This document shows positions 238 to 24,885 of a stretch of 27,690 bases of DNA, piece by piece. Each line of letters begins with the position of its first letter. Position 1 is the first letter of the stretch. The notes under the pieces were generated by a model. The model did no database searches. It worked only from the letters and a program-made list of their open reading frames with translations, and was not told the origin of the DNA. The translations under genes were made by a program, and so were the position numbers. Origin of the DNA: a virus; the IMG/VR virus record IMGVR_UViG_3300006751_000096, positions 1 through 27,690 of that record. One strand, 5' to 3'.

Positions 238-379
238 AGGAATACAACAGCTAAAATCAATACAAAAAGATTTTGAACAAACAGGTGATGTCAAGCAGTT
301 AATGGATTCAGTTAATACATTGCCACCAGAAATGCAGGAATTATTTCAAGAAATGTGTAAAAGTGTAGAAAATGAGTAG
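224..379 (+). CDS. small hypothetical protein (51 aa)
   Basis: ATG at 224 overlaps the upstream gene by 14 bases, and its stop overlaps the next gene's ATG at 372. The peptide is hydrophilic, with a short acidic and helical second half (PPEMQELFQEM). No domain is recognised. The evidence that it is real is the overlap on both sides and the lack of another frame explaining 238-371. Confidence 0.6.
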   Translation: MSKNKGIQQLKSIQKDFEQTGDVKQLMDSVNTLPPEMQELFQEMCKSVENE

Positions 380-3064: not shown

Positions 3065-3427
3065 ATGAATAAATTCCCAAACGAAGCAACAAGATTCAGT
3101 TCTGAAAATCAACCAGAGAAACGTGGAAGACCTAAAGGCAGAAGAAATGTGGCTACAGTATTAAAAGAACTATTGGCAACACAAGATGAAAACATGGGTG
3201 GTCTTGGTGATTTTGGAAGTCCACTTGCAAAGATGTTGATAAAAATTGCATTCAGTAATGATTCTAATAACAATGAAAAGCTAAAAGCTATAAAAGAAAT
3301 ACTTGACAGGATTGAAGGGTTGCCAGACCAAAACCTTAATGTTTCTGCAAGTCCACCTTCTTGGATCAATGACGGCGATGTTCTGGGTGGTGAAGTATAT
3401 GATGACTATGAAGATGAAACAAGCTAA
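3065..3427 (+). CDS. terminase small subunit-like protein (DUF5681-type)
   Basis: A 120-residue protein whose N-terminus has the GRPKGRRN signature (residues about 21-28) after a hydrophilic FSSENQPEKR segment. This is the pattern of the DUF5681 family, small phage proteins that usually precede the large terminase subunit. The remainder is helical (LKELLAT, KLKAIKEILDRI) with an acidic tail (DDYEDE). A DNA-recognition role in packaging is inferred from position directly before the large terminase and from the basic AT-hook-like GRPKG. Its last 20 bases overlap the start of the large subunit, a usual coupling. Preceded by a 44-base gap without a clear promoter. Confidence 0.75.
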   Translation: MNKFPNEATRFSSENQPEKRGRPKGRRNVATVLKELLATQDENMGGLGDFGSPLAKMLIKIAFSNDSNNNEKLKAIKEILDRIEGLPDQNLNVSASPPSWINDGDVLGGEVYDDYEDETS

Positions 3428-4580
3428 ACCATATTATGATGTAAAAAATTCAAGCAAAAGAATTTGTGTGTTGCAGGGTGGAACAAGAAGTGGAAAAACG
3501 TATTCAATAATTCTTGCATTGATTGAGTTTGCATATAAAAACAAAGGCAAAGGTTTGTATATAACAATTGCAAGAAAGACATTCCCAAGTTTGAGAGGAA
3601 CAAGTATGCGTGATTTCTTTGATGTTCTAAACAAAGAGAATTTGTATAGTGAAGCAAATCACAACAAATCAAGTGCATTATACGAACTCTACGGCAATAT
3701 CTTCGAATTTATAAGTGTTGACCAACCCGCGCGTGTTAGAGGGCGTAAACGTGATGTTCTGTTTTTGAATGAATGCAATGAGTTTTCATTTGACGAATAC
3801 ACACAATTGGCATTACGAACAACATACAAGATAATAATTGACTTCAACCCAAGTGAAGAATTTCATTGGCTATACACACAAATAATTGATGCAGACAGAG
3901 ATGATGTTGACTTTCATATTTCAACATATAAAGACAACCCATTTTTAGAAGAAAGCACAATATCAGAAATTGAAAGACTTAAAGAAGTAGATGAGAACTT
4001 ATGGCGGGTTTTTGGTGAAGGGCAAAGGGGTGTTGCTACTGAAACCATTTTCCCTTCATTTAATATAGTGGACAAAGTTCCAGAGAATGCAAAACCTATT
4101 GCATTAGGACTCGACTTTGGTTTTAGCGCTGATCCAACATCATTGGTTAAAATATACAAACATGACTTAGATTTGTATATTGATGAACTACTTTATGAAA
4201 AGGGTTTGACCAACCAAGACATTGCAACCAAAATCAAACACTTAGGTATTGACAGAAGTATTGAGATATTTGCCGATTCAAGCGAACCCAAGTCGATTGA
4301 AGAAATCTTTCGAATGGGTGGCATAAATATTAAGGGTGCAAAGAAAGGGCCGGACAGTGTGAGGATTGGAATTGATGTGATGCGAAGGCACAAGCTGAAC
4401 ATAACACAAAGAAGCGTCAATGCAATTAAAGAGTTTAGAAACTACAAGTGGATAAAAGACAAGAACAATGAAATCACTAACAAACCAATTGATGCTTATA
4501 ACCACAGCATTGATGCGGTTAGATATGTTTGCTTGAACAAGTTAATGGTGTCGTATTCTGGAAAGTATTATATTAGTTAG
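3408..4580 (+). CDS. terL: terminase large subunit (PBSX/Terminase_3 type)
   Basis: The packaging motor ATPase and nuclease, 390 residues from ATG 3408 (ATG 3414 is equally possible). Residues 24-31 are the Walker A loop GGTRSGKT. Residues 117-126 (VLFLNECNEF) give Walker B with the catalytic acidic residue. The C-terminal RNase H-like nuclease has its acidic residues in GLDFG (Asp236), FADSS (Asp290) and HSIDAVRY (Asp369). Length is normal for the family. It overlaps the small subunit gene; the longer reading frame from 3303 is just the overlapping out-of-frame extension. It is followed by a 30-base gap that carries the composite late-promoter motif before the tail genes. Confidence 0.96.
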   Translation: MKMKQAKPYYDVKNSSKRICVLQGGTRSGKTYSIILALIEFAYKNKGKGLYITIARKTFPSLRGTSMRDFFDVLNKENLYSEANHNKSSALYELYGNIFEFISVDQPARVRGRKRDVLFLNECNEFSFDEYTQLALRTTYKIIIDFNPSEEFHWLYTQIIDADRDDVDFHISTYKDNPFLEESTISEIERLKEVDENLWRVFGEGQRGVATETIFPSFNIVDKVPENAKPIALGLDFGFSADPTSLVKIYKHDLDLYIDELLYEKGLTNQDIATKIKHLGIDRSIEIFADSSEPKSIEEIFRMGGINIKGAKKGPDSVRIGIDVMRRHKLNITQRSVNAIKEFRNYKWIKDKNNEITNKPIDAYNHSIDAVRYVCLNKLMVSYSGKYYIS

Positions 4581-4611
4581 ACAAAAACAATAATTTTATA
4601 TTTATAAAAAA
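4578..4611 (+). promoter_or_regulatory. candidate phage late promoter, copy 1 (tail operon)
   Basis: TAGACAAAA at 4578-4586, ten bases, then TATATTTATAAAAAA at 4597-4611, ending on the A of the ATG at 4611. The same two blocks with the same 10-base gap occur at 13887 and 17381. If TATATTTA is a -7 box, transcription would begin on or next to the start codon, giving a nearly leaderless message. Function is inference from repetition and position. Confidence 0.6.
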
Positions 4612-5180
4612 TGAAGAACATTAAATTAACAGTTCCAGAAAGTTGGAATGATATAACAGTTAGACAGTATCAGAAGTTCACAAAGATTCTTAAACTTCAA
4701 CAAGAAGAACGACAAAGAACAATTGACATTGTTTCTGTGTTTTGCAATGTAGACAAAAAGCTGTTGAAGAAATTTAAAATGAAGGACTTGGACAAGATTT
4801 CAAACATTATTGTTTCAATGACCAAAGAAGACCCTTCAAATATTAAAATGGAAAAGAACATTGAGTTTAACAATGACAAATATGGTGTCATTCCAAATAT
4901 GTCTGAAATGACAACAGGCGAGTTTGTTGACCTTGAAAGCTACTGTGAAGAATCAACAGAAAACCTGCACAAGATTTTGTCTGTGTTGTATAGAAAGCAG
5001 ACAGATAATGTTGATTATTGGGGGCGGTATCAAGTAGAAGATTATGATCCATCACCAGAAAAACACACGTTGATGTTAGACCTTCCGATGAATTATGCTT
5101 TGGGGGTTCTCAATTTTTTTTTTCATTTAGGCGACAAACTTTTAGCAGATTCGGACAATTATTTGATGAAGTTGAAATAA
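4611..5180 (+). CDS. tail assembly chaperone-like protein, zero-frame product
   Basis: A 189-residue soluble protein opening with LTVPESWNDITVRQYQKF, a start style seen in small tail-assembly proteins of Bacteroidota phages. It is mostly helical and charged. Shortly before its stop lies a run of ten T (5114-5123), read as FFF. From there the -1 frame stays open for 91 codons to 5398 with no ATG of its own. This matches the G/GT arrangement of lambda-like tail chaperones, where a short form and a frameshifted long form are made. The chaperone role is inferred from this architecture and from its place at the head of the tail module. Unusually, the tape measure gene is about 6.2 kb downstream, not adjacent. 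Confidence 0.75.
   Translation: MKNIKLTVPESWNDITVRQYQKFTKILKLQQEERQRTIDIVSVFCNVDKKLLKKFKMKDLDKISNIIVSMTKEDPSNIKMEKNIEFNNDKYGVIPNMSEMTTGEFVDLESYCEESTENLHKILSVLYRKQTDNVDYWGRYQVEDYDPSPEKHTLMLDLPMNYALGVLNFFFHLGDKLLADSDNYLMKLK
5112..5123 (+). promoter_or_regulatory. slippery site for -1 ribosomal frameshifting
   Basis: AATTTTTTTTTT read in zero frame as AAT TTT TTT TTT, followed by CAT. Any heptamer within it is T TTT TTT, the X XXY YYZ form that lets both tRNAs re-pair one base back. After the shift the ribosome reads TCA TTT AGG and continues to the stop at 5396-5398. Polymerase slippage on the run would give the same result. Confidence 0.65.
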
Positions 5181-5398
5181 CACAGAATGAGGGAACAAGT
5201 TATGAAAGAAGGATAACAACAGAAAAAAGATACAAAAGCAAGTGGGGGTGGTATACCGTTCTCTACAATTTGTCTGGTGGGGATATACTGAAAATAGAAC
5301 CTGTAACCAAGACAAAAATATACGAAGCATTAACATTCTTGTCTTATCAACAAGATTTATTTATTTTAGAAAAAGAAAAAAATGGCACAAAATTCTAA
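5123..5398 (+). CDS. -1 frame extension of the tail chaperone (GT-like part)
   Basis: Ninety-one codons in the -1 frame, beginning SFRRQTFSRFGQLF and ending KEKNGTKF. Joined to codons 1-171 of the zero frame, it gives a 262-residue protein. The extension looks like a real protein: KWGWYTVLYNLSGGDILKIE followed by EALTFLSYQQDL, a pattern I associate with the C-terminal part of tail assembly proteins in Bacteroidota phages. It has no ATG, explains the otherwise empty stretch 5181-5381, and ends 17 bases inside the next gene. The alternative is a single 262-residue gene broken by a miscounted T in the homopolymer. Confidence 0.7.
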   Translation, partial: SFRRQTFSRFGQLFDEVEITQNEGTSYERRITTEKRYKSKWGWYTVLYNLSGGDILKIEPVTKTKIYEALTFLSYQQDLFILEKEKNGTKF

Positions 5399-5879
5399 CA
5401 ACACACCAAACAATATCACATACAGACAAATGGTTGGAACATTTAGTGATATAGCAACAAATCACTTGCAAATACAATCATTCAATTCTGGTAGTTTAGA
5501 TGACTTGGATATTGAAAAGTTAGATGCTGACAAATTCCCTTTGCTGTATATAACGCCACAACCTGCTATTGTTGATGCACACACATTAACATACTCATTT
5601 GATGTTGTTGTTGCAGACCAAATACAAGAAGACATGACTGACATTGATGACACTTATTCTGAAACACTTTTAATAATAAAAGATGTCATTGCTAATTTTA
5701 GACAAGCAGTGCAAACAAAGTCTTGGGCGGATCAAAGAACAGACATTGAAATGCCAATAAATTTAACACCGTTCACAAGTAGGTTTTCAAACTTACTGAC
5801 AGGGTGGGCGGGGACATTTAATATAGTAGTTAACAATGAGAACAACCTGTGCATTGTTCCACAAACAGATAATACATAA
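5382..5879 (+). CDS. tail terminator / neck-like protein
   Basis: A 165-residue protein starting at ATG 5382, overlapping the frameshifted chaperone extension by 17 bases and ending TAATG with the next gene. The middle has an alternating beta pattern typical of small head-tail joining and tail terminator proteins: FPLLYITPQPAIV, then LTYSFDVVVADQI, a helix (YSETLLIIKDVIANFRQAV), then LTGWAGTFNIVV. That beta-beta-helix-beta order, and the place just before a gp10-like gene, suggest the protein capping the tail tube or linking it to the head. The assignment rests on fold pattern and context, not on a signature motif. Confidence 0.6.
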   Translation: MAQNSNNTPNNITYRQMVGTFSDIATNHLQIQSFNSGSLDDLDIEKLDADKFPLLYITPQPAIVDAHTLTYSFDVVVADQIQEDMTDIDDTYSETLLIIKDVIANFRQAVQTKSWADQRTDIEMPINLTPFTSRFSNLLTGWAGTFNIVVNNENNLCIVPQTDNT

Positions 5880-6451
5880 TGGCAACATATCCAAATTTTA
5901 CACAAGCATTGCAGGACTTTGGAAAGGTGCAGGTTTCTGATGCTAAAGCAGGTGTTCCAGACACAGCATTGGCAACGTCAATAGAATATCAAGTGCAGGG
6001 TGCGGGAAGGTTTCAACCAACAGTTAGTTTCAAAATGAATGACTATGGTGGATTTGTTGACACAGGGGTTGTTGGAACAGGACAACCATTTGACAATGGA
6101 AGAAAACTTGATATGAAGACGCAACTGAACAGTAAAAAAGCAAATGAACTTTTTGGCTTTGATAAACAACCTGCATTTTCTGGAACATATAAAATGATAA
6201 ACCCAAGTGCAATTGATAAATGGGTTATTAAAAAAGGACTTGGTGGAACAAGAGATGCAAAAGGAAGATTTATAAAAAGAAGTGCTGTCAAATTTGCTGT
6301 TGCAACCGCTATATACAGACAGGGACTTCAGGGAACAGGTTTCTTTTCAACACCACTAGAATCAAATATAGAAGCATTTAACCCCATCTTTGAAGACGCA
6401 CTTGCTAAAGACTTAACTGAAAACTTAAACATTGATAAATACTTTGTATAA
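5879..6451 (+). CDS. HK97 gp10-like neck / head-tail joining protein
   Basis: A 190-residue protein with the features of HK97 gp10-like neck proteins. YGGFVDTGVVGTGQPF (about residues 58-73) is the strand-turn with a V-D-x-G motif. It is followed by PSAIDKWVIKKGLGG and then RDAKGRFIKRSAVKFAVATAIYRQG, a basic segment and a helix, and FFSTPLE near residue 160. Proteins of this kind complete the head-tail connection. The start is coupled to the previous gene (TAATG), and it abuts the next gene with no gap. Family assignment is from remembered motifs and is fairly secure; the exact position in the virion is not. Confidence 0.65.
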   Translation: MATYPNFTQALQDFGKVQVSDAKAGVPDTALATSIEYQVQGAGRFQPTVSFKMNDYGGFVDTGVVGTGQPFDNGRKLDMKTQLNSKKANELFGFDKQPAFSGTYKMINPSAIDKWVIKKGLGGTRDAKGRFIKRSAVKFAVATAIYRQGLQGTGFFSTPLESNIEAFNPIFEDALAKDLTENLNIDKYFV

Positions 6452-7978
6452 ATGGCAACACTACAGATAACACAAATACCAACAGAAACAGCAACCTTCG
6501 TAGGCACAGCAAACACATATGCTGAACTTGTGCCAACAAACTATTGGCCGATACTTCCAATAACAATAAGAGTAACAGATGACCTCGCGGCGCTTTTTAA
6601 AGTGAAGTATATATTGAGAGTGTATAAAGACAGTATTTCAGATGCCAACCTTTTAGCCACAGTAAAACAAAGAACAAACAATCTTTCTTCAACAACAAAT
6701 CAAGTTGCTATTTTTGATGTTAGAAATATCATAAACACACAACTTCAAGCAACCTACAGTGATGGTGCTAACGCAGACAAAGAAATTCACACATTGGGGG
6801 AAAATACAGTGACCAAGATATTTAGTGGAAACAATGACACAGTTCAAACCATTATATTCAAAGCAACATGGGAGAGGTCAACAACTGCAGGTGGCGCACC
6901 AGAAGAGCAGACAGGTGGCACAGATGAAGTGCAAATAACAATGTATTTCATAAATGCTACATTCAAATTGTTCAGTGTTATGGGTGAAGACACCAATCCC
7001 TTAACGGATTACAACACAGTTTCAAACATTGACTATCTACATTCTAACGCACCAGACATCACAGATACAAGAATGATGAATTTGGCACCGGGTGGTTCTT
7101 CTGGTCTTTTAAGTGGTTTAATGAACTACATAACCAACACACATTCGTTTCACACAATAGCATTTCAGAACAAAGGCGCGTGGGGTTCTAACGCTGATTA
7201 TTTAGGACTGCAATTTTATGAAGCAGATGGAAGTTTAATTTTTACATATACATTTTATAACAGCACAGCACAGGGTGGCTACTTACCGGCAAGTGCGGGT
7301 TCAGATTTATCATACTTTTTGTTTGCGGGTGTTGGTTCTGCAAATCTTGAGAATTACACAGGCGCATGTTTCAAAGATGATTCGGCACTAGCAAACTTTG
7401 ATGGTCAACCTTCTGGGGATGTTGTGAGAGATTATGCGTATTATAGAGTATATATGTGCGACAACCAAAACGGAACCGCTTCATTTAGGTCTAAGTATTA
7501 TTATTTTGTAAAAGAATTTGACAATGCTGTTAATTGCCAAAAGCAAAAAATTATTCGTCTTGGTTGGATCAATGAACTTGGTGCTTGGGACTACTACAAT
7601 TTCAATGGTGGTCAAACTGAAACAGTATCAACAGAACGGCAAACGTATTCAACAATGCTTGGTTCAAGTGCCTTAGACAGGGGGGCAACATACAGCTTTG
7701 ACACGTGGGGTGCAGGAACAAGAACATTAACAACAAGGTCTAAATTGAAAAGCCAATTACAAACACAGTATATTGATGAAGCAGAAGCACAGTTTCTTGA
7801 AACATTATTTAACTCAACAGTAGTGATGCAAATACAACAAGCAGGTGTTGACACCTTTTCACAGTCTGTTGTTATTACAGACAAGTCTTTTCAAAGAAGA
7901 ACAAAAGCAAAAGACAGACTGCAAATACAATATACATTCACAATAGAATATAGCAATCCTATTAACACAAACTCATAA
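6452..7978 (+). CDS. large tail structural protein (tail tip / distal tail region)
   Basis: A 508-residue, beta-rich, Thr- and Asn-rich protein without signal peptide or membrane segments. The N-terminal part alternates short strands (ITIRVTDDLAALFKVKYILRVY). The middle has aromatic-rich strands (FYEADGSLIFTYTFYN). The C-terminus has a domain with YSFDTWGAGTRTLTTRSK, then EAQFLETLFNSTVVM, SVVITDKSF and LQIQYTFTIEYS, a strand set typical of ring-forming tail proteins. It is coupled to the following 1154-residue gene by TAATG. In this context it is probably part of the tail tip complex. I do not recognise a named family. Confidence 0.65.
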   Translation: MATLQITQIPTETATFVGTANTYAELVPTNYWPILPITIRVTDDLAALFKVKYILRVYKDSISDANLLATVKQRTNNLSSTTNQVAIFDVRNIINTQLQATYSDGANADKEIHTLGENTVTKIFSGNNDTVQTIIFKATWERSTTAGGAPEEQTGGTDEVQITMYFINATFKLFSVMGEDTNPLTDYNTVSNIDYLHSNAPDITDTRMMNLAPGGSSGLLSGLMNYITNTHSFHTIAFQNKGAWGSNADYLGLQFYEADGSLIFTYTFYNSTAQGGYLPASAGSDLSYFLFAGVGSANLENYTGACFKDDSALANFDGQPSGDVVRDYAYYRVYMCDNQNGTASFRSKYYYFVKEFDNAVNCQKQKIIRLGWINELGAWDYYNFNGGQTETVSTERQTYSTMLGSSALDRGATYSFDTWGAGTRTLTTRSKLKSQLQTQYIDEAEAQFLETLFNSTVVMQIQQAGVDTFSQSVVITDKSFQRRTKAKDRLQIQYTFTIEYSNPINTNS

Positions 7979-10900
7979 TGGAACAAGTTAGATTAGTTGC
8001 ATATAGAAAAGCTACGAGTGGCGCTACAGTGGACACAAGCTATGAATTTGACTTGCAAGAAAGTCCAAACATATCTTTGAATTTTCAATTCTCAGATATT
8101 AAAGAACCGCAGACAAGAAAAGCAAATTATTCACAGACATTCAAATTGCCATTCACAGACAACAACAATGACTTCTTTCAAAATTGGTTTAATGTTAATA
8201 TGGCGACACTTGTGTTTTCTACAAGGCAAAAATTTACCGCTACTTTGTTTGTGGGTGCAACACCACAGTTTGAAGGGTTTATTCAATTAAAAGCGGTATA
8301 TCAAAAGGCACAAGTCTATGAAGTTGTTTTGATGTCAAACACAGCAGACTTGTTTTCTGCAGTTGGTGAAAATAGATTGCGCGATGTGTTCAGAAATGAA
8401 GATGGTTCATACAGCAATGAATTAAACCATATATATAAACGCGATAACATAATAGCATCGTGGAATGGTGGTTCTTCAAGTTTTACAAGTGATTGTGTTG
8501 GTTGCAGTGGCGCATCTTTAAGAGATGTAGATGCAGGTGTTCAAAAGGTGATGTATCCGATGTCCATAACAACACCCAAATTTTATTACTACAGTAATAT
8601 TCAATACTTTTTGAACATGCCCCAATCATATATAGATGCTCAGGGATATGAAAACTCGTCTGATAGGATGGTTGACATAACACAGTTCAGACCTGCATTG
8701 CAATTAAAAAATATACTTAATCTGATACTTGAAAAAGCAGGTTTCACATATACATCAACTTTTATTAATGGTTCTTATTTTGGCAAGTTGTTCATGACAA
8801 CTGCAAACAATATAGAGGGTGGAATGTTGCCAACAACAACCTCAACAACATTCCCAAATTTTTCAACAAAAGTTGGAAACAATGCAACTTGGGGTGTTTA
8901 TGAACCGAATGAAGGTGGAATGCCTAATATAGACACGCCTATTCCAGAAGCAGACTTGATGACTGTTGTCCCTGCGAACACAGAAAGCGGTTATTCTTGC
9001 GTTTCTGATACTTTTAATTGTTGGAATACAGTCGAAAATTCTTTTACAAAAGTTTCTGGTGGACAAATAGAAATGTCTGTTAGTCACAGGTGGAAGATAG
9101 ACAGGGTTTCAAGGGTTAATTCAGAAGAACCAATTTTATTAAAAGTATGGTTACAAGACACGTCAAACCCAGACTTAGTCTATGGCGACCCCTCTATTGT
9201 AACCACAAGTGTTGGTGATGGTGGTGGTTCTACTGATAGTTCTAGCCTACCCGAATGGCATTATTTTGACCTATCACAAATGGACATTGGTGCAACTGCA
9301 CACATATACATGAGTTTTACAAACATACAATTTGATCATGCAACACTATCTTCTATAAAATTTGCAAACTCAACAGCTACGGTCTGCGGTGGCGAAATTG
9401 GTTTATATTCTAAAATCACTGTTTGGGCAATTCCTTATTCAGAAGGGGTTTACAATGGAACAATTAATGTTCCTGCTTGTATTGATGAAAACATTTTGCA
9501 GAAAGATTTTTTGCTTGATATTGTTCAGAGATTTAACCTTGTTATCATATCTGATCCAGACAACCCTGAGAACCTGATTATAGAACCTTATGATAATTAT
9601 ATTGCAACTGGTGAAATAAAGAAATGGACAGACAAATTAGATGTGTCTAAAGAGGTTATTGTGAAAGACACTACATCAATACAAAAAAAGATTATTCATT
9701 TCACAGATCTTGAAGACACTGACCTGTGGAACAAAGCATTGAAAGAAGAAGCGCCAGAGGTCAATGTATATGGACATTATAAGCAAATAAACAGCACAAA
9801 TGAGTTTGCATCTGGTGAATTAAAAAACAATTCTATATTTTCACCATATATCAATGATAAGGTCTTTATCTATTCCGGTGACGAGCAAACAGAACTTCCA
9901 AACATGACAGTTCAATATGAAACAACATACAATGATGATGGCAATTTTATTGTTCCCGCAAAAACAAAGCCAAAGTTGTTTTATTATTGTGGAACAGCAA
10001 CAACAGTCAAAGATGGCAATGACGACACTGTTACTTATTACATGCACAACCAAATTGAAGCATTGAGTGAAATAACAGCATATAGTTTCACAACCTATCC
10101 TGTGTGTTCACCATTTGACATAACACCTTCAAGTGATGCTTATACATTAACGTCAGCAAATAAATCATTGTATTGGAATGCTAACCCGCCACCACGTGGT
10201 GAATTAGATGTTTTTAATTATACTGATGAAACAGCAACGTGGTTTGCAAACACTTTATATGGGTTATATTGGCAATCATACTTAAACACTATCTATGATC
10301 CAAATGCAAGAATGATGGAGTGTTATTTGTATCTGGATGATGTGGATATTCATAACTTCAAATTCAATGATGAGGTGTTTATTAAAAATGCTTATTGGCG
10401 GGTTTTAAGTATCACAAATTATCAAGTAGGCATAAAGACTTCAACAAAGGTTTCACTGCTTAAAGTGGTTGATGACAGTGGTCCGTGTGAAGATTGTGAT
10501 TATGTTGTTGGAACAGATTCAACAGGAAACAATCTTTGGAATGGGTTTTTTTATTATTGGTGTCCGGACACTGATCCAAATTGCACCCCTTCTGTTTCAG
10601 CATTGCCATTGCTCGGGATATTAGCACCAGAAAGTTGTTGCACATGTCAAGGTGGAGAATCATTGACCAACTTCCCTTTTGCAACAGGCATTTACCCTTG
10701 TTTTGCAAACTCAGGTAGTTTGCCAATTAATTTGAAAAGTCTTTTAGGTATGCGTTCAATACTATCAAAAGGACAAGCCAAGTCAATTATATTTGACAAA
10801 ATAAGTGGTTACCAAAGACAACTTGTGATTGGTTCTGATAATGGACAATACAGTAGTTCCATTCTACCAAACTATGCAGATGATATGGTTATTAAATACA

Positions 10901-11442: not shown

Positions 11443-11615
11443 AACAACACATACAGCTAAGTTCAATAATGATGTTGACACAGCTAAGAATTATTAATAC
11501 AATTGAACTGCATGGAGAAAAAGAATACTGTTTTTTATACGGCATGAATGAAAGACATGACAGCTTCACAAGAATGTTTAAAGAAATAAAAAGAATAATA
11601 TGGCTAAGGAAGTAA
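11433..11615 (+). CDS. small hypothetical protein before the tape measure gene (60 aa)
   Basis: ATG at 11433 overlaps the end of the tail-tip gene by 10 bases, and its stop overlaps the tape measure start by 16. The sequence is MELKQHIQLSSIMML followed by an EKEYCFLYGMNERHD turn and a basic helix (MFKEIKRIIWLRK). Without it, 157 bases would be empty in an otherwise gapless module. The place just before the tape measure is where tail chaperones usually sit, but nothing in the sequence shows that function. Confidence 0.55.
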   Translation: MELKQHIQLSSIMMLTQLRIINTIELHGEKEYCFLYGMNERHDSFTRMFKEIKRIIWLRK

Positions 11616-13324
11616 ATGTAGAAGTAAATTTTGACACAAAAGATGCTCAGAAAAATGCAAAGGACTTAGGGAAGGACTTTCAAGACTTAGGCAACAGTGC
11701 AGATGATGCGGGAAACAAAGTGAAAGGTGCAGGTGGTGGCGCAGAAAAATCTGGAAAAGAAGCTAAAAAAGGATCAAAGGGTTGGAACATATTTGGTAAA
11801 GCAATGCGAATGACAGGCATTGGTGCTTTGGTTGGTGTGTTCTTTAAATTTAGTGAGGTTTTAATGGGAAACCAGAGAGTGATGGACGCGGTGAATACTG
11901 TTGCCAATACAATGTCTATTATATTTTCTGATTTGGTCAATTTAATTATTGATGGTGTTGGTGTTGTTATTGACTGGGTTTCTAATCTTGGTAGTTTGTC
12001 GGATATTTTCAATAACGTAAAAGACAAAGTGCTTGACTTTGGTGGAACGATAAAGACATACATCATTGATTCAGTGAAAAAAACCATTGAAGGCATTGGT
12101 CTTCTAGGTCAAGCAATTGGAAAAGTGTTCAAGGGTGAATTTAAAGAAGCTGCGAAAATAGCAAAAGAAGGTGTCAAAACATTATGGAATGCAAACCCTG
12201 TTGTTGACTTAACAAAGAAAACAGTTAAATATGCAAAAGAAGTGTTGCCAAAAGTGGTTGAAGGAATTAAAAAAGGTGCAAAAGCGACAGGCGAGTATTT
12301 GAAAAAAACATACGAACAGGGAAAGGCAATTGTTGACACAGAAAACAAGCTGACAAAATTAATTGGAACACTTGAAAAAGAACGTGTTGCTATACAAAAA
12401 AACATTGATGAAAAGATAAAACTAAGGGACAATGAAAATAAAACCTTTGAAGAAAGAAAACAGGCGGCACAAGAATTATTGAAACTTGAAGAAGATCTAC
12501 TTGCCAAAGATATAGAACTACAAAAAGCAAGGGTTGAAAATTTAGAAGCTGAACTGAGGGTGAACCAAGACAACCTGCAAATGAAACAAGACCTTGCTCT
12601 CGCACAAGCAAAGTTAACAGAATTAGAAAACCAAGATGTTAAGCAAATAACAGAACAGACACAAGCTATTCATGATTTGACAATGGCACAAACTCAGTCA
12701 ATAGCAGAAATTGAATTGCTTTCTAAGTTTGGTCGAGAAAGGGAACTTGCTGAACTTGATTTGTTTTACAAAGAACAATTAGAAAAAGCAAGAAAAGCGG
12801 GTGTGGATCAATCTAAGGTCACTGAACAATATGAAGAAAAGAAGAAGCAAATAAGAAAGAAATATAATGATATTACAATACAGGCGGCGGGGAATTTACT
12901 TGGTGCTTTGGCGGCGGGACAAAAAAAGGGTTCAGATAAATGGAAAAAAATAGCAACTGCACAAGCATTAATAAACACATACTTGGGTGTTACTAAAGCA
13001 TTAAGTGATAAAGAAATGCCATTTGTTGCTAGAATGATTAACGCGGCTACACAATTAGTTATGGGTTTAAACAATGTGAAGTCAATTAAAAACACAAAAA
13101 TGGAAGGTTCTGGTGGTGGGGGTTCTGGTTCTGGTTCAGCCGTTTCATCGCCTACAATCAATCCAAGTGAATTTATTGGTGATGTTGGCAATTTAGTTCC
13201 AAATCAACTTACAGAAGATGTTGCAGGAACAGAAGCACAACCTGTTCAAGCGTATGTGGTTGAAAGGGATATTTCAAGCAGTCAAGCATTACAAGAAGAA
13301 CTAAATTTACAATCAACATTGTGA
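11600..13324 (+). CDS. tail tape measure protein
   Basis: A 574-residue protein. Order of features: an N-terminal Lys/Asp/Gly-rich region (GNKVKGAGGGAEKSGKEAKK), a hydrophobic Gly-rich segment (MRMTGIGALVGVFFKFSEVL) starting near residue 70, amphipathic helices (GLLGQAIGKVFKGEFKEAAK), then a long coiled coil from about 255 to 420 (EKERVAIQKNIDEKIK, ARVENLEAELRVNQ). It ends with a Gly/Ser linker (EGSGGGGSGSGSA) and a tail. Tape measure proteins set tail length at about 0.15 nm per residue, which here would mean a tail near 85 nm. This supports a siphovirus of modest tail length. It is followed by the gene-free island, so it ends the tail operon. Confidence 0.85.
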   Translation: MAKEVNVEVNFDTKDAQKNAKDLGKDFQDLGNSADDAGNKVKGAGGGAEKSGKEAKKGSKGWNIFGKAMRMTGIGALVGVFFKFSEVLMGNQRVMDAVNTVANTMSIIFSDLVNLIIDGVGVVIDWVSNLGSLSDIFNNVKDKVLDFGGTIKTYIIDSVKKTIEGIGLLGQAIGKVFKGEFKEAAKIAKEGVKTLWNANPVVDLTKKTVKYAKEVLPKVVEGIKKGAKATGEYLKKTYEQGKAIVDTENKLTKLIGTLEKERVAIQKNIDEKIKLRDNENKTFEERKQAAQELLKLEEDLLAKDIELQKARVENLEAELRVNQDNLQMKQDLALAQAKLTELENQDVKQITEQTQAIHDLTMAQTQSIAEIELLSKFGRERELAELDLFYKEQLEKARKAGVDQSKVTEQYEEKKKQIRKKYNDITIQAAGNLLGALAAGQKKGSDKWKKIATAQALINTYLGVTKALSDKEMPFVARMINAATQLVMGLNNVKSIKNTKMEGSGGGGSGSGSAVSSPTINPSEFIGDVGNLVPNQLTEDVAGTEAQPVQAYVVERDISSSQALQEELNLQSTL

Positions 13325-13343
13325 TACGATTTATGCTTGAAAA

Positions 13344-13375
13344 TTTGGTAGTGTCAAAAATTTTTTGTATATTTA
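13344..13375 (+). promoter_or_regulatory. Bacteroidota-type promoter of island unit 1
   Basis: TTTG at 13344-13347, exactly 20 bases, then TATATTTA at 13368-13375. This agrees with the known Bacteroides-type consensus (-33 TTTG, -7 TAnnTTTG) except for the last base. It lies just after the tape measure stop and points into the palindrome at 13377. Confidence 0.6.
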
Positions 13376-13376
13376 C

Positions 13377-13410
13377 TATGTAAATGTGATTATAATATCA
13401 CAATTACATA
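13377..13410 (+). other. 34-base near-perfect palindrome at the predicted transcript start
   Basis: Outer arms TATGTAA (13377-13383) and TTACATA (13404-13410); inner arms TGTGAT (13385-13390) and ATCACA (13397-13402); one A-A mismatch (13384/13403) and a 6-base loop TATAAT. Thirteen base pairs in total. It begins two bases after the -7 box, so it could be an operator overlapping the start site or a 5' hairpin protecting the RNA. The TGTGAT/ATCACA halves resemble a dimeric regulator site, but the regulator is unknown. Confidence 0.7.
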
Positions 13411-13549
13411 AAACCCAAGTAAGGAACTGTGAGTTTTACCCTTTAAGAATTATGAAACACTAAGGAAAAAGGTTTAAGTAATAAACAACACCATTGTATC
13501 GCTTGGTGAAATAGACAAGAAAACTTTAGAAACTTGTCTATTTTTTTTT
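13381..13549 (+). ncRNA. candidate small RNA, island unit 1
   Basis: About 169 bases between a good promoter (13344-13375) and a strong terminator (13509-13549) with no convincing reading frame inside; the only ATGs give peptides of a few residues. Visible structure: the 5' palindrome; AAACC (13411-13415) able to pair with GGTTT (13471-13475); GTTTT (13433-13437) with GAAAC (13454-13458); CACC and GGTG near 13489-13507; then the terminator stem. TGTGA near 13429 could compete for the TCACA of the 5' palindrome. No known RNA family is recognised. The exact 5' end is inferred from the promoter. Confidence 0.45.
13509..13549 (+). terminator. rho-independent terminator of island unit 1
   Basis: AAATAGACAAG (13509-13519) pairs fully with CTTGTCTATTT (13533-13543), an 11-bp stem with a 13-base loop, running into nine T (13541-13549). 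Confidence 0.85.
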
Positions 13550-13593
13550 GCTCTAAATTCAATACGATTGTTAATAACTTTTGCCGATTTTAC

Positions 13594-13624
13594 TTGACTT
13601 GTGTCATATTTTTTCTTATATTAG
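13594..13624 (+). promoter_or_regulatory. Bacteroidota-type promoter of island unit 2
   Basis: TTG at 13594-13596, exactly 20 bases, then TATATTAG at 13617-13624. The -7 box differs from TAnnTTTG at one position. Transcription would begin near 13630 and run through the two 39-base repeats to the terminator at 13848. Confidence 0.5.
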
Positions 13625-13665
13625 TTATAGATGATTGGGAATAGGTTGAGTGAGTTACTTGAGAG

Positions 13666-13704
13666 GCGGACATTATGCAGGACAGAAGTTTAGAAAATAA
13701 CACC
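13666..13704 (+). repeat. 39-base direct repeat, copy 1
   Basis: Begins GCGGACATTATGCAGGACAG and ends AACACC. It matches copy 2 at 13757-13795 at 36 of 39 positions (ATT/ACT near the start and two bases near the end differ). Both copies hold an ATG at the same place, followed by codons MQDRSLE. Confidence 0.9.
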
Positions 13705-13815
13705 TTGATAAATAGTCAAAACAAGAGCAAGAAACCTAAAATCATCAAGTTCAGGTGCGGACACTATGCAGGACAGAAGTTTAGAATACAACACCAAGAA
13801 AAATCAAGATTATGA
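13675..13815 (+). CDS. possible small basic protein (46 aa), uncertain
   Basis: ATG at 13675 inside repeat copy 1 opens a 46-codon frame that passes through repeat copy 2 in a different frame, giving KPKIIKFRCGHYAGQKFRIQ in the middle. The promoter at 13594 would place it about 45 bases into the transcript. In the frame read here through copy 2, the two copies differ mainly by conservative changes (AGA/AGG, CAT/CAC are synonymous), hinting that RxGHYAGQKFR was once coding. Against it: the two copies are 91 bases apart and so lie in different frames. Treat as a weak call. Confidence 0.25.
   Translation: MQDRSLENNTLINSQNKSKKPKIIKFRCGHYAGQKFRIQHQEKSRL
13757..13795 (+). repeat. 39-base direct repeat, copy 2
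   Basis: Begins GCGGACACTATGCAGGACAG and ends AACACC; second copy of the repeat at 13666. Its ATG (13766) opens a 26-codon frame MQDRSLEYNTKK... ending at 13846, parallel to the frame begun in copy 1. Confidence 0.9.
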
Positions 13816-13847
13816 CACAGAACAGGTTTTGACAAATAGGAACTAAC

Positions 13848-13877
13848 AAAAGAGGTTTAAAACACCTCTTTTTTTTT
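13848..13877 (+). terminator. rho-independent terminator of island unit 2
   Basis: AAAGAGGT (13849-13856) pairs with ACCTCTTT (13864-13871) around a 7-base loop and runs into nine T (13869-13877). The T run and the following GCTCTAAA are identical to the end of the unit 1 terminator. Confidence 0.85.
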
Positions 13878-13886
13878 GCTCTAAAA

Positions 13887-13920
13887 TAAACAAAACACCC
13901 TTTCTTATATTTATAAAAAA
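13887..13920 (+). promoter_or_regulatory. candidate phage late promoter, copy 2 (head operon)
   Basis: TAAACAAAA at 13887-13895, ten bases, TATATTTATAAAAAA at 13906-13920, eight bases before the ATG at 13929. No TTG lies at -33. It directly follows the island terminator, so head genes are started afresh here. Confidence 0.65.
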
Positions 13921-13928
13921 CAAGTCAA

Positions 13929-14891
13929 ATGAAAAAAACAAAAATCGTTGAATTACTAATTGATGAAACAGAAGAAGTTCATGGCATTCAAGCCATTTCA
14001 CTTGTGTCAAACCCTGCATTAGAACGGGGGTGGGTGGCATTAAGCAAAGACAAATTTCTTTCACTTGCAAAAGTAGATGAAGAAAAAAGAACACTTGTGG
14101 GTGTTGCATTAATACCAGAAAAACAAATACCGAGATTCGATGAAACAGAAGGTGAATATTTAGTTTTCTTTTCAAAAGAAACAATAGAAAAAGCACAAGA
14201 ACTTTTCATGAACAGCTTAAAGAATAACAAAGCTACTGTTGAGCATGAAAAAGATGTTCAGGGTGTTTCTGTCATTGAAACATGGATCAAAGAAGATGAC
14301 AATGACAAATCTAACTTATACGGGTTCTCTGATTTGCCAATAGGTTCTTGGCTTGTGAAAATGAAAGTATACAATGATGATGTATGGAAACAAGTGAAGC
14401 AGGGTGATTTAAAAGGTTTTAGTATCGAGGGGTTCTTTGTTGATAAAGCAATCGAAATGCAGAAGGGTGATATTTTAGACTTAGCAGAAGAATGTGTTGA
14501 GTGTGAACAAAAAGAATTGATGGAAGAAATAAAAGACGTTCTTTTAAATGCTGAATTAAGACCAGACAAAACACTTGATGGAACACCAATATATATGGAC
14601 GTTGAAAAAGCTGAATTATATGGAAGTTTGTTTTTTGATTGTGTAGGAAGCCACTCGCATGAAATTGATGGAAAAACATATTACATGGGTTGTAAATCAC
14701 ATCAAGAAGTTTTAAAGAAAAGAAAAAAGAAGATTGCATATAAAACAAATCAATACAGAAATAAAAACGCGGAATCTATGGAAAAATACCCGTGGGATCA
14801 ATGTATTGAAGACCAGATGAAAGAATACGGGGACAGGGAAACGGCAGAAAAAGTGTGTGCGGCAATAAAAAATAGAACTGTTAAAAAATAG
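13929..14891 (+). CDS. XkdF-like prohead protease
   Basis: A 320-residue protein matching the XkdF-like serine protease family (Peptidase_S78_2), which matures phage capsids. N-terminal ELLIDETEEVHGIQAISLVSNPA is typical. The likely catalytic His is His106 in VEHEK, followed by SVIETWIKEDD; the likely catalytic Ser is Ser165 in LKGFSIEGFF. After residue 180 comes an acidic and Cys-containing linker (EECVECEQKE), a small domain with CVGSHSHEIDGKTYYMGC, and a C-terminal helix pair PWDQCIEDQMKEYGDRETAE ending in VCAAIKNR, a tail motif also seen in other phage head proteins. It precedes the scaffold-like and capsid genes, the usual order. It is the first gene after the late-promoter motif at 13887. 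Confidence 0.85.
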   Translation: MKKTKIVELLIDETEEVHGIQAISLVSNPALERGWVALSKDKFLSLAKVDEEKRTLVGVALIPEKQIPRFDETEGEYLVFFSKETIEKAQELFMNSLKNNKATVEHEKDVQGVSVIETWIKEDDNDKSNLYGFSDLPIGSWLVKMKVYNDDVWKQVKQGDLKGFSIEGFFVDKAIEMQKGDILDLAEECVECEQKELMEEIKDVLLNAELRPDKTLDGTPIYMDVEKAELYGSLFFDCVGSHSHEIDGKTYYMGCKSHQEVLKKRKKKIAYKTNQYRNKNAESMEKYPWDQCIEDQMKEYGDRETAEKVCAAIKNRTVKK

Positions 14892-14907
14892 TTTTACATT
14901 TTGAAAA

Positions 14908-14941
14908 GGAACAAATAACAAGTATTAATATATATAAAAAA
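14908..14941 (+). promoter_or_regulatory. degenerate copy of the late-promoter motif
   Basis: GGAACAAAT (14908-14916; 6 of 9 matches to TARACAAAA), ten bases, AATATATATAAAAAA (14927-14941; 13 of 15 matches), seven bases before the ATG at 14949. The spacing is the same as in the three clear copies. Weaker evidence because AT-rich leaders look alike. Confidence 0.35.
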
Positions 14942-14948
14942 CAAAGAA

Positions 14949-15659
14949 ATGGGTTCATTACAAAAAATCAAAGAACTATTAAGGTTCTCAAAAAAGAAGA
15001 CATACAAAATCAATATGTATGCAGAAGCAATTCTTGATGATGCAAGAGTAATTGCAACAGATTCAGAAGAATTTGAAATTGGTTCAGCCGTTTACGTAAT
15101 TAATGACGCAGGTGAAGTTGAAGATTTAGCGGAAGGAATATACACACTTGAAGATGGTTCTAAAATCAGAATTGATGCTGAAAGCAATGTGGCAGGGTTT
15201 GGTGAAGAAGAAGTTGTTGAAGAAGTAGAAGAAGATTTGGAAGAAGAAGTTGTTGTTGCAAAAGAAGAAGTAATTGAAGAAATTACTGCTGATCCTGTTG
15301 TTGAAGAAATTGCAGTCAAAATAAATGATGCTACTCCAGACGAGGTAACTGAAGAAATTGCAAAAGAAGTTGCAAAAGTGGTTGTCGATCATATTTCAGG
15401 AAAAGTAGAAGAAGAAGTTGAAGCGGTTGAATTGTCTTCTGATGTTATGGGCGAAATTTTAACACGACTTTCTGCAATAGAAGAAAAATACACAGAATTA
15501 GAAGAAATGCCTTCAAGCAATGGAGTGAATATTTCACCAACAAACCTTTCTAAAAATGGAAAAAGTTTATTTGCAAAGAAATCGCGTGAAGACGTCTTGG
15601 GCATGACAACATCAGACCGTGCGAGGTTTATGATACAAAATAAAATAACAAGAATTTAA
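14949..15659 (+). CDS. acidic scaffold-like head protein
   Basis: A 236-residue protein directly upstream of the major capsid gene. The N-terminus is basic (FSKKKTYKINMYAEAIL). Residues about 45-75 (GSAVYVINDAGEVEDLAEGI, then YTLEDGSKIRI) resemble the small beta segment found in capsid-adjacent proteins of Bacteroidota phages. Residues 78-155 are extremely acidic, with many Glu and Val repeats (EEEVVEEVEEDLEEEVVV), probably helical. The C-terminus is a short coiled coil (AIEEKYTELEE) and a basic end. Acidic, helical, capsid-adjacent proteins are typically scaffolds removed by the prohead protease, which is encoded just upstream. The role is inference from composition and position. Confidence 0.7.
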   Translation: MGSLQKIKELLRFSKKKTYKINMYAEAILDDARVIATDSEEFEIGSAVYVINDAGEVEDLAEGIYTLEDGSKIRIDAESNVAGFGEEEVVEEVEEDLEEEVVVAKEEVIEEITADPVVEEIAVKINDATPDEVTEEIAKEVAKVVVDHISGKVEEEVEAVELSSDVMGEILTRLSAIEEKYTELEEMPSSNGVNISPTNLSKNGKSLFAKKSREDVLGMTTSDRARFMIQNKITRI

Positions 15660-15670
15660 ATTATATTAAA

Positions 15671-16666
15671 ATGAAACAAAGAAATTTTCAAGACGATTAT
15701 AACGAGATAAATCCTAAATTAAGAAAGTATTTTTTCTCTACAACTAACCCTGCAATAACATCAACTTATGCAGGAGAGTTAGCACTTCCATATCTAAGTG
15801 CGGCACTGAAAAGTGGAAAAACACTTGCTAATAATTGGATAACAATTAAGGAGAATATTCCATACAAGGCGGTTCTGAAAAATGTTGCAAATGCAAGTCT
15901 TATTCAGGATGGATCTTGTGATTGGAATGAAGCGGGAACCACTACTCTAAGTGAAAGAATTTTAACTCCGGAGGAATTTATGATTAATACTGAATTGTGT
16001 AAAGGTAAATTCAGAAGTGATTGGGAAGCTTTAGCAACGGGATCTCTTTATGATGATCACATACCCCCTACATTTGAAGAATTTTTATTAGGTATGATAG
16101 CTGATGAGGTTGCTCAAAAAATTGAAACTACTATTTGGAATGGAACAAATGGAACAACGGGAGAGTTTGAAGGACTTGCAACAGCAAATGGTGTAATTGT
16201 TCAAGAAGGGAATGTAATTAATACTTCAGTTGACTGGTCAACAGGAACAAATGTGATGACAAATCTTGGAGCTTTAATAACTGGAGCTACGGGAGTGTTA
16301 GCGGTGTCTCCTGCAATTATTGATAAAGAAGATTTTGCAATATATGTTTCTCCGAAAGTTGCTTTTCTTTATCAACAAAGATTGGCAGAACTTGGATATT
16401 TGAACGAATACTATGTAAGTGAAAAACCACTTAATTATATGGGTTATCAAATGTTAGTATGTCCCGGCATGCCTAATGATAGAGCGATTGGAGCACAAAA
16501 ATCTAATTTATATTTTGGATGTAATACAATGACTGATATGACTTCTGTTCGTGTTATCGATAGAACTTTAATCGATGGGAGCGATAACGTAAGAATAACG
16601 ATGCGATACAATGCGGGTGTTCAAGCGGGTGTTATTGGTGAAACATTTTGTGTAAAAGAATCGTAG
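15671..16666 (+). CDS. major capsid protein (HK97 fold)
   Basis: A 331-residue protein placed between scaffold-like and tube-like genes and closed by its own terminator. The C-terminal part shows the HK97 P-domain pattern: FAIYVSPKVAFLYQQRLAEL, LNYMGYQMLVCPGMPND, then DRTLIDGSDNVRITMRYNAG and VIGETFCV. The N-terminal 60 residues are helical and could be a processed or scaffold-contacting arm. No long acidic delta domain is fused, consistent with a separate scaffold gene. Codon choice differs by eye from its neighbours (more ACT, GGA and GCT; less ACA), as expected for a very highly expressed or recently exchanged gene. No strong promoter is seen in the 11-base gap before it. Confidence 0.85.
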   Translation: MKQRNFQDDYNEINPKLRKYFFSTTNPAITSTYAGELALPYLSAALKSGKTLANNWITIKENIPYKAVLKNVANASLIQDGSCDWNEAGTTTLSERILTPEEFMINTELCKGKFRSDWEALATGSLYDDHIPPTFEEFLLGMIADEVAQKIETTIWNGTNGTTGEFEGLATANGVIVQEGNVINTSVDWSTGTNVMTNLGALITGATGVLAVSPAIIDKEDFAIYVSPKVAFLYQQRLAELGYLNEYYVSEKPLNYMGYQMLVCPGMPNDRAIGAQKSNLYFGCNTMTDMTSVRVIDRTLIDGSDNVRITMRYNAGVQAGVIGETFCVKES

Positions 16667-16679
16667 AAACTGAATTGAT

Positions 16680-16708
16680 AAGAGTGGTTGAAATACACCA
16701 CTCTTTTT
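16680..16708 (+). terminator. rho-independent terminator after the capsid gene
   Basis: AAGAGTGGT (16680-16688) pairs with ACCACTCTT (16697-16705) around an 8-base loop and is followed by a T run (16704-16708). It probably limits read-through from the abundant capsid message. Confidence 0.88.
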
Positions 16709-16732
16709 ATAACCTTTTAAAAGAAAATAAAA

Positions 16733-17323
16733 ATGAATAAATTTTATCAATTCGCCTGCGACGTCAGCGAAGGCCGTTTGGTCGCGTGTAAAGATGTCAT
16801 CGGTGGAATACAAAAGATTTTCTTGACTAATTACGATGAAGCGCTACTTTCAAAGCTAGTCATCACATCAAATGAAATAACTGACTTTGATTCCGCAATT
16901 ACTGTTTTTCAGTATGATCTGAGAGCAAACACAGGGACATATAATGCGAATTTCACAAGCAATGATGCAAATGGAACAACGTATTATGAACAAGTTTTGG
17001 AAGTGATGTTGCAAAAGATAATTCATGAAGACATTCCAAATTTAGACAACATACTAAAAGGAAGATGTCATGTTTGGGTTCTAGATGCAAATGACAATGT
17101 GTTTTTATTAGGAACAAGATTTGGTTGCACCGTGACTGCGGGAGCAATGTCTACAGGAACAGCAAAAGCGGACATGAGCGGTTTTACTTTGACGTTTACA
17201 GCACAAGAAACTGAAAACTACATGTTGAAAGAATCTGCGGGTGTTGGAACAGCGAAATATCCATTTGATGGAATCGCTACTGACGCCAACGTGACTATCA
17301 CAGTTGGAACTACACCGGCATAA
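16733..17323 (+). CDS. tail tube-like / structural protein after the capsid gene
   Basis: A 196-residue protein lying between two terminators. Its last 90 residues show a beta pattern seen in tail-tube-like proteins of Bacteroidota phages: CHVWVLDANDNVFLLGTRFG, GTAKADMSGFTLTFTAQETE, and a GTAKYPFDGIATDANVTITV end. The middle helix EQVLEVMLQKIIHEDIPNLD fits a tube protein as well. Being flanked by terminators on both sides suggests high, separate expression, as for a major virion component. It lies between capsid and portal genes, not with the other tail genes, so a head role cannot be excluded. Its first 60 bases are strikingly GC-rich compared with the rest of the window. Confidence 0.6.
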   Translation: MNKFYQFACDVSEGRLVACKDVIGGIQKIFLTNYDEALLSKLVITSNEITDFDSAITVFQYDLRANTGTYNANFTSNDANGTTYYEQVLEVMLQKIIHEDIPNLDNILKGRCHVWVLDANDNVFLLGTRFGCTVTAGAMSTGTAKADMSGFTLTFTAQETENYMLKESAGVGTAKYPFDGIATDANVTITVGTTPA

Positions 17324-17344
17324 ACAAATATTCTATTCTGTTTG

Positions 17345-17378
17345 AAAAAGGGTAATCTGCGGGTTGCCCTTTTTTTTT
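17345..17378 (+). terminator. rho-independent terminator after the tube-like gene
   Basis: AAAAAGGGTAA (17345-17355) pairs with TTGCCCTTTTT (17364-17374), including one T-G wobble, with an 8-base loop. The T run ends at 17378. Confidence 0.88.
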
Positions 17379-17380
17379 AG

Positions 17381-17414
17381 TAAACAAAAAGCGTATATTT
17401 ATATTTATAAAAAA
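17381..17414 (+). promoter_or_regulatory. candidate phage late promoter, copy 3 (portal operon)
   Basis: TAAACAAAA at 17381-17389, ten bases, TATATTTATAAAAAA at 17400-17414, eight bases before the ATG at 17423. It directly follows a terminator, as copy 2 does, which supports a role in restarting transcription. Confidence 0.65.
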
Positions 17415-17422
17415 GAACAATC

Positions 17423-17590
17423 ATGATTATAGTAAAAAAAGAGTTTTTGAATGAAAAGGTTTCACACTACAGAATACCATTGGGTGAAATGAATCAAGGT
17501 CAATTAAGACACATTCAAGAAAGGTTTGGGGACAAGTATTTTGAAACACCTAAAAAGAAAAAAAAGAATGATTCAGTGGACACGGAATAA
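17423..17590 (+). CDS. small conserved-type protein before the portal operon (55 aa)
   Basis: ATG at 17423, nine bases after the late-promoter motif. The sequence has a basic start (IIVKKEFLNEK), a short helix (GEMNQGQLRHIQERFGDKYF) and a Lys-rich, acidic tail. It overlaps the next gene by 23 bases. No family is recognised. The placement right behind the promoter motif, with an ATG at the expected distance, makes it a convincing gene. Confidence 0.65.
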   Translation: MIIVKKEFLNEKVSHYRIPLGEMNQGQLRHIQERFGDKYFETPKKKKKNDSVDTE

Positions 17591-24838: not shown

Positions 24839-24885
24839 ATTCTCCTTTTGTTAATAATTCTGTTAACAACGCAAAACCCTTCTTT

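Follow-up and report, generated by a model that had tools for sequence, protein, structure and literature searches.

The viral DNA of IMG/VR record IMGVR_UViG_3300006751_000096 raises the question of what an identical two-block sequence is doing at the heads of three groups of virion genes, and what reads it. The window, meaning the whole stretch of DNA analyzed, is the entire viral record of 27,690 bases, which comes without the phage's ends and is probably a fragment or a permuted copy of a small tailed phage. A first-pass annotation, made from the letters alone, had noticed three copies of a TARACAAAA block followed at an identical gap by a second block, and had proposed that they are promoters for the structural genes, read perhaps by a phage-modified host polymerase or with the help of an activator that binds the TARACAAAA block. 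The first part of that proposal has good support from where the copies lie, their spacing, their strand and their conservation, and the copies are almost certainly promoters of virion genes, so far as sequence comparison can tell. A group of related tailed phages, probably of marine Bacteroidota, very probably uses the motif as its late promoter, and the probability that these promoters are read by a sigma-like protein encoded by the phage itself is put at roughly 0.7.

A pattern search of the whole window recovered three exact copies of the motif, all on the + strand at the places originally reported (Table 1), with no further match at up to three mismatches, a chance expectation of 0.00 and no match in 100 dinucleotide shuffles. 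The final A of copy 1 doubles as the first base of the ATG at 4611, and eight bases separate copies 2 and 3 from their ATG codons, so that the earlier description of copies ending 1 to 9 bases before an ATG holds for copies 2 and 3 but has to be corrected for copy 1, which overlaps its start codon instead of ending one base short of it. The two copies said to follow directly after a terminator do so, hairpins ending just before copies 2 and 3, and because terminators precede them a promoter is needed at both places. The degraded copy with the same gap that had been reported before the scaffold gene is also real: its spacing is intact (ACAA, N12, then AATATATA instead of TATATTTA), and it corresponds to a fourth head in relatives, where the AATATATA variant is kept in most near relatives and the full motif is present in G002, G019 and G020.

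Relatives were assembled as 106 loci from capsid, portal and terL searches of viral contigs and as a whole-record set of 26 relatives of 21.7–32.2 kb, which with the window makes 27 phage records. In these records the core ACAA-N12-TATATTTA has 81 matches on the coding strand (45 of them from the 15 nearest records and 36 from the remaining 12) and none on the reverse strand, compared to a mean of 1.45 and a range of 0–4, both strands together, in 20 dinucleotide shuffles of all 27 records. Four gene heads, namely after terL, before the protease gene, before the scaffold gene and before the portal gene, account for 79 of the 81 matches (a few sites at contig ends or with an uncalled head gene were assigned by their own downstream sequence, and one head is present twice in G019, the ends of which repeat); the other two are within terL (G023:14864) and at G015:12101. 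A concentration of matches before structural genes is what had been expected of such a search, and the random scatter in coding DNA that had been named as the contrary outcome was tested for and not seen. Spacings from 4 to 26 other than N12 give at most 16 forward matches each; the N6 matches nearly all overlap N12 sites, and N13 contributes 16 further forward matches, of which five are at structural heads and ten in the open reading frame (ORF) that precedes the sigma-like gene described below. A weight matrix built from 39 unique sites, and trained on the same genomes that it scanned, finds 72 places scoring at least 16 in the 27 records, all on the coding strand, one of them within the endolysin gene and all others at the four virion-gene heads. 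A search of the relative loci allowing up to three mismatches gives 85 matches on the + strand and none on the − strand, from loci that overlap and are not independent.

The same heads emerge when upstream regions are anchored on genes by a start blind to the motif. AC[AG]A-N12-TATATTTA is present in 77 of 87 distinct post-terL regions, 25 of 34 protease regions (in several of the nine misses, counted as such, the start was placed too early, and just the first part of the motif is seen where the excised sequence ends) and 19 of 21 pre-portal regions. The strict core is found at only 1 of 28 scaffold heads, which mostly have the AATATATA variant, as at window position 14908. In near relatives the gene-anchored consensus contains both blocks before the post-terL gene, the protease gene and the pre-portal gene, but at no control head examined. 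Where other DNA intervenes between terL and the next gene, the motif adjoins the head gene and not the 3' end of terL; because it stays beside the separated head gene in six such loci (L213, L214, L224, L238, L255 and L261), it is part of the gene head. The exact motif turned up in 51 stretches when 2.9 million viral contigs were scanned, and all 18 exact-motif contigs of at least 19 kb belong to the same phage group by terL, portal or sigma homology.

The core takes the form A-R-ACAA-N12-TATATTTA, in which ARACAA supplies AAC at most sites and GAC at part of the post-terL sites. Since the distance from the A-run to TATATTTA is constant whether the ATG is fused to the motif or lies eight nucleotides away, the A-run in near relatives is not a feature of the translation start alone but part of the promoter; in distant relatives the A-run is altered (TTAGTA, TAAGTA). 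At the post-terL head the ATG lies exactly six nucleotides past TATATTTA in 73 of 77 motif-bearing regions, distant relatives included, which points to selection on the distance between transcription start and start codon, and to a post-terL message that would be leaderless or nearly so. The TATATTTA block occupies −12 to −5 in sigma-A numbering, or about −15 to −8 when aligned on phage P12024S (see below), and in either register the first start codon falls at about +1 to +3. The suggestion that the first copy would give a leaderless message is supported by the fixed start-codon distance across relatives. Leaderless mRNAs amount to 5.5% in Flavobacterium psychrophilum, according to one study (PMC9723704).

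In promoters of Flavobacterium johnsoniae (PMC6847099), T-12, A-11, T-8, T-7, T-6 and G-5 are nearly invariant, transcription starts 4–5 nucleotides downstream, and the −33 TTTG element is itself weak. The base corresponding to G-5 is A, never G, in all 81 core matches; ACAA-N12-TATATTTG does not occur in the 27 records; and TTTG is absent at about −33 before all three window copies, as had been noted. Because the −5 G is always A and the −33 TTTG is lacking, host sigma-A would be predicted to read the motif poorly. Early-region promoters with TTTG at −33 had been put forward as the counterpart of the late motif, and one consensus site of the form TTTG-N20-TATATTTG is indeed present in early-region DNA (Table 1). 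Among the matches listed, a second, at 8047, is inside a gene, and the pattern TTG-N18-22-TAHHTTTG has no coding-strand enrichment in the 27 records (57 forward versus 112 reverse matches); a systematic class of early sigma-A promoters is not claimed for that reason, and this part of the earlier proposal is weakly supported.

The candidate reader of the late promoters is encoded at the left edge of the window, which retains the C-terminal portion of a sigma-like protein, the remainder being beyond the contig edge. Homologs of approximately 166–198 amino acids are encoded 1.4–5.9 kb upstream of terL in 25 of the 26 relatives, the exception being G014, the record of which begins 908 nucleotides before terL. 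Likewise, 16 of the 18 exact-motif contigs of at least 19 kb encode the protein, and the other two begin less than 1 kb upstream of terL. An alignment of the homologs has two conserved halves with a variable linker between them, and PHROG 1740, "RNA polymerase sigma factor", matches three of four family members tried, with E-values from 2.6e-7 to 1.1e-3. Structure models were made from 19 and 49 sequences, with predicted local distance difference test (pLDDT) scores of 69.5 and 74.2, respectively. For both, nearly all of the best PDB matches are sigma factors, mainly of the extracytoplasmic function (ECF) class; this holds for the top 32 hits of the deeper model, and the C-terminal domain comes within 1.7–2.5 Å of sigma region 4 structures. 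Size and two helical domains fit the layout of an ECF protein (regions 2 and 4 without region 3, about 160–200 amino acids), with fold matches that are mostly sigma factors at E-values of 7e-3 or higher in models of those scores. No gene for a single-subunit phage polymerase was recognized among the window ORFs scanned, in a contig that comes without its ends. The idea of a phage-modified host polymerase is supported in the specific form of a predicted phage-encoded sigma-like protein, on the evidence of sequence and models.

Three observations concern the surroundings and variants of the sigma-like gene. Downstream of it, window positions 372–734 encode a 120-amino-acid protein that has homologs in nearly all relatives (43–74%) and no PHROG or Pfam match, and that is a candidate sigma partner or anti-sigma factor. 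In 10 relatives ACAA-N13-TATATTTA occurs about 75–110 nucleotides before the sigma gene, within the preceding ORF, where the conserved peptide is YIYKK; this near-copy is possibly a promoter by which sigma activates its own gene, or just the product of coding constraint in a conserved coding stretch. The related lineage L107–L109, which lacks the motif, has a sigma-like ORF of 197 amino acids with sub-threshold Sigma70_r2 scores of 11.7–13.4 bits, and has TACGTTATATA before the post-terL gene, before another gene upstream of terL and, in L108, before the protease gene, which is suggestive of a third sigma/promoter pair, with too few sites to claim one.

A parallel system is found in the distantly related Nonlabens (Persicivirga) phages P12024S and P12024L, the nearest cultured phages by portal protein (29–30% identical; 29.5% for P12024S). 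Gene product gp33 ("Sigma-70 region 2") of P12024S, encoded upstream of terL, passes the Pfam cut-off for Sigma70_r2 (25.2 versus 24 bits). AAAC-N17-CGTTA (once N16) is present at seven gene heads of P12024S in the structural and packaging regions, with the ATG 12 nucleotides past the C of CGT in six cases and 11 in one; the N17 form has seven matches in this genome versus 0.47 expected, six of them at heads and one elsewhere. ECF sigma factors generally recognize AAC at −35 and CGT at −10, according to PMC4153023. AAC is found in the upstream block of both groups (ARACAA in the window family, AAAC in P12024S), CGT in the second block of P12024S (CGTTA), and the C of AAAC stands 29–30 nucleotides from the ATG in P12024S and 29 from it at promoter 1 of the window. 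Because of the AAAC-CGTTA layout and this matching distance, block 1 is by analogy most likely a −35 element, with TATATTTA in the −10 position that CGTTAATA takes in P12024S. The other possibility that had been raised, an activator on the TARACAAAA block, becomes less likely, since AAAC 17 nucleotides before CGTTA is an ECF-type −35/−10 layout. P12024S-type promoters occur in at least 120 stretches in a scan of viral contigs, the spacing from CGT to ATG peaking at 12 nucleotides with 13 distinct matches among those listed. Such a promoter followed by an ATG 11–15 nucleotides on was taken at 21 loci from 19 records, P12024L among them, and a gp33-type sigma is encoded in 6 of the 19 records, versus none of 40 controls drawn from 99 loci. 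A search of open-access full-text literature found no description of the late promoters of P12024S.

Several results weigh against the phage's own protein as the reader of the motif. The co-occurrence of motif and sigma-like gene reflects shared ancestry in part, and the motif is absent at the readable post-terL head of lineage L107–L109 and of the relatives L257–L275 that were found by sigma searches. Both structure models are mediocre by their pLDDT scores, Foldseek E-values are 7e-3 at best, and Z scores near 9 can be common for helical folds. None of the window-family members with scores shown reaches the curated Pfam cut-off for Sigma70_r2 or Sigma70_r4_2; among 49 members at E ≤ 0.1, Sigma70_r2 matches five (best E-value 0.0099) and Sigma70_r4_2 matches 13 (best 0.023), and the commonest Pfam match is UPF0122, in 28 of the 49. 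A sequence-profile search of the PDB with the sigma profile returned no sigma factor, only a UPF0122 helix-turn-helix protein and unrelated chains, and hhalign found no significant link, hence no detectable profile homology, between the window-family sigma and the gp33 family. The CGT of ECF −10 elements is missing from the window family, which has TATATTTA instead, one base off the host −7 box TAnnTTTG.

That closeness to TAnnTTTG is also the starting point of the main rival explanation, in which the host sigma-A holoenzyme reads TATATTTA as a weak −7 box with the aid of a phage activator on the TARACAAAA block, the sigma-like protein being this activator or having some other role; T4 MotA at middle promoters is said to be a model for such an arrangement. 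The gap between the two blocks, which is shorter than the usual −33/−7 spacing, and the weak Pfam scores of the sigma-like family are in its favor, but the explanation is rated unlikely given that A replaces the −5 G in every core match, with no ACAA-N12-TATATTTG in the 27 records; that models of the candidate protein have both sigma-2-like and sigma-4-like domains; that P12024S joins the same block 1 to an ECF-type −10 element; and that the widely shared genes, with the small genes tested in part, offered no better candidate for a DNA-binding protein.

Two other explanations are far less probable. Flavobacteria have several ECF sigma factors of their own (seven in F. psychrophilum; PMC9723704), and AAC is present within block 1, so that a host alternative sigma, for example a host ECF factor, might read these promoters while the phage protein serves as an anti-sigma factor or unrelated regulator. 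Such a reader is very improbable: the exact motif was found in just four stretches among 84,980 species genomes of bacteria and archaea (records of Epulonipiscium, Endomicrobium, Anaerofustis and Treponema, taken as chance matches) and in no record titled Bacteroidota, in a search confined to the exact form, so that a host regulon is not evident; and the flavobacterial motifs described in the available part of the same study are unlike TATATTTA with ACAA (PMC9723704). The least credible explanation is that the A-rich block is a Bacteroidota translation-start signal and not a promoter. Although A-rich sequence 5' of the AUG aids initiation in F. johnsoniae, which has no Shine-Dalgarno sites (PMC6847099), a signal of this kind does not account for block 1, the 12-nucleotide gap and TATATTTA remaining unchanged with the AUG fused or eight nucleotides on, for the lack of the blocks at control phage genes, or for the terminators before two copies that call for a promoter.

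If the phage's own sigma-like protein is the reader, host sigma-A would transcribe the early genes, including the sigma gene; the small ECF-like sigma, comprising regions 2 and 4, would then join the host core RNA polymerase and recognize a bipartite promoter in which TARACAAA serves as the −35 element and TATATTTA(TAAAAAA) as the −10 element and start region, and would thereby switch on the tail, head and portal blocks. At the head of the tail block, initiation at or within about three nucleotides of the AUG would leave the message with no leader or almost none; a leader of about 9–15 nucleotides would be expected at the protease and portal heads.

A broader generalization can be put forward tentatively, as somewhat less probable than its negation: that small marine Bacteroidota phages widely run their late program with a self-encoded, two-domain, ECF-like sigma, that the AAAC −35 element has been kept as the −10 element diverged by lineage (TATATTTA versus CGTTAATA), that late messages are leaderless or nearly so by design (the tail-block message in the window group, many in the P12024 type), and that the sigma may activate its own gene. 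Little has been described of how Bacteroidota phages regulate their genes, and the hosts of these phages have unusual promoters and no Shine-Dalgarno signals. If true, the proposal would provide a rule to predict late genes in many uncultured marine phages, a natural series of sigma/promoter pairs with drifted −10 and −35 specificity, an instance of leaderless or nearly leaderless late mRNA translation that selection on the spacing of the start codon seems to maintain, and candidates for orthogonal promoters in Bacteroidota genetics. It would also single out a gene so far unannotated as the probable switch to making virions.

The host of the phage is inferred to be one of the marine Flavobacteriia. 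On the + strand the gene order of the window is methyltransferase, terL, tail block, protease, putative scaffold, putative capsid, a small gene, portal, endolysin, holin and early-type genes (Table 1). The capsid gene is mosaic, with 77–78% identity to G016 and G017, whose terL identity is 48–49%, and 27–37% identity to the nearest relatives, though their terL is 76–88% identical. At 2497–2572, three in-frame repeats of 21 nucleotides (KKEYNEL) are found within the ParB-N6/N4 methyltransferase gene. The 560 nucleotides from the tape-measure gene to promoter 2 (13324–13886) are noncoding and contain T-tailed hairpins and two diverged 55-nucleotide repeats (13659–13713 and 13750–13804); the repeat part looks mobile, because, of the relatives searched, only L094 (in the corresponding position) and L076 (immediately 3' of terL) have it. 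Megablast of window positions 1–24000 against phage records gave no match, nor did an Rfam search, nor PADLOC among six proteins.

Table 1. Features of the window, with positions in relatives where a record is named.
Feature	Position	Strand	Remarks
Predicted late promoter 1	4578–4611 (block 1 4578–4586, block 2 4597–4611)	+	Exact match; begins at end of terL
Predicted late promoter 2	13887–13920 (block 1 13887–13895, block 2 13906–13920)	+	Exact match; conserved in relatives
Predicted late promoter 3	17381–17414 (block 1 17381–17389, block 2 17400–17414)	+	Exact match; conserved in relatives
Predicted fourth, weaker late promoter, before scaffold and capsid genes	14908–14941	+	AATATATA replaces TATATTTA; weight matrix score 17.7
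Terminator hairpin just 5' of promoter 2	13848–13872	+	Found by terminator scan
Terminator hairpin and T-run just 5' of promoter 3	17345–17378	+	Folds at −16.4 kcal/mol, z −4.34; missed by terminator scan
Phage sigma-like protein, C-terminal 78 residues (sigma-4-like helix-turn-helix)	1–237	+	83% identical to full-length G001 homolog
N13 near-copies before sigma gene	G001:20735, G002:9385, G003:23654, G004:14315, G009:4304, G010:26110, G011:13579, G020:15494, G022:26278, G023:9472		Records oriented with terL on +
Candidate host-type (sigma-A) early promoter, TTTG-N20-TATATTTG	24885–24916	+	Consensus match in early-region DNA
terL	3303–4580	+	
First gene after terL, head of tail gene block	4611–5180	+	Weak tail-protein match: PHROG 32199, E 1.3e-10; PHROG 166 (tail protein), E 8e-4
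Tape-measure-like gene, last of tail block	11600–13324	+	
XkdF-like prohead protease gene	13929–14891	+	PF14550, 56.5 bits (cut-off 24); starts 8 nucleotides past promoter 2
Putative scaffold gene	14949–15659	+	Assigned by position only; no family match
Putative major capsid protein gene	15671–16666	+	PHROG 1623 (virion structural protein), E 2.5e-7; PHROG 11320 (unknown function), E 2e-31
Small gene, first of portal block	17423–17590	+	8 nucleotides past promoter 3; homologs in relatives
Portal protein gene	18014–19930	+	PHROG 33693 (portal), E 1.1e-73
Endolysin gene	22975 (start)	+	
Holin gene	23439 (start)	+	

Phage sigma factors for late genes are already known: gp55 of T4 is a small, divergent protein of the sigma family that redirects the host core polymerase to late promoters, and it resembles sigma region 2 only and acts with a co-activator and the sliding clamp (PMC2988020). 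Late transcription in T4, with gp55, T4 gp33 and the gp45 clamp, is like the system proposed here in that a small phage-made sigma redirects the host core polymerase, and unlike it in that the window family has a two-domain protein, as predicted, and a promoter with an upstream block; the T4-type layout of a −10 element alone is not what was found, there being a second conserved block at fixed spacing, and a clamp and co-activator were not searched for specifically. The T4 late promoter motif is reportedly TATAAATA, and in SPO1-type cascades, which belong to large phages of Bacillus whose promoter sequences are different, phage sigma factors (gp28, gp34) are said to switch gene classes. A search of open-access full texts brought up no small Bacteroidota phage in which an ECF-like sigma of two domains is paired with a bipartite late promoter. 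The promoters of the Bacteroidota primary sigma (sigma-ABfr or sigma-A; −33 TTTG and −7 TAnnTTTG) resemble block 2 of the motif in the TA at its start and the TTT near its end, and differ from the motif, which has neither the −5 G nor the −33 TTTG and has an additional conserved ACAA block. P12024S and P12024L share with the window family similar gene types, a small sigma encoded upstream of terL, an AAAC block at fixed spacing to a second block, and a start codon at a fixed short distance from the second block of late heads; they differ in having CGTTAATA and not TATATTTA as the −10 block, at a gap of 16–17 nucleotides from AAAC.

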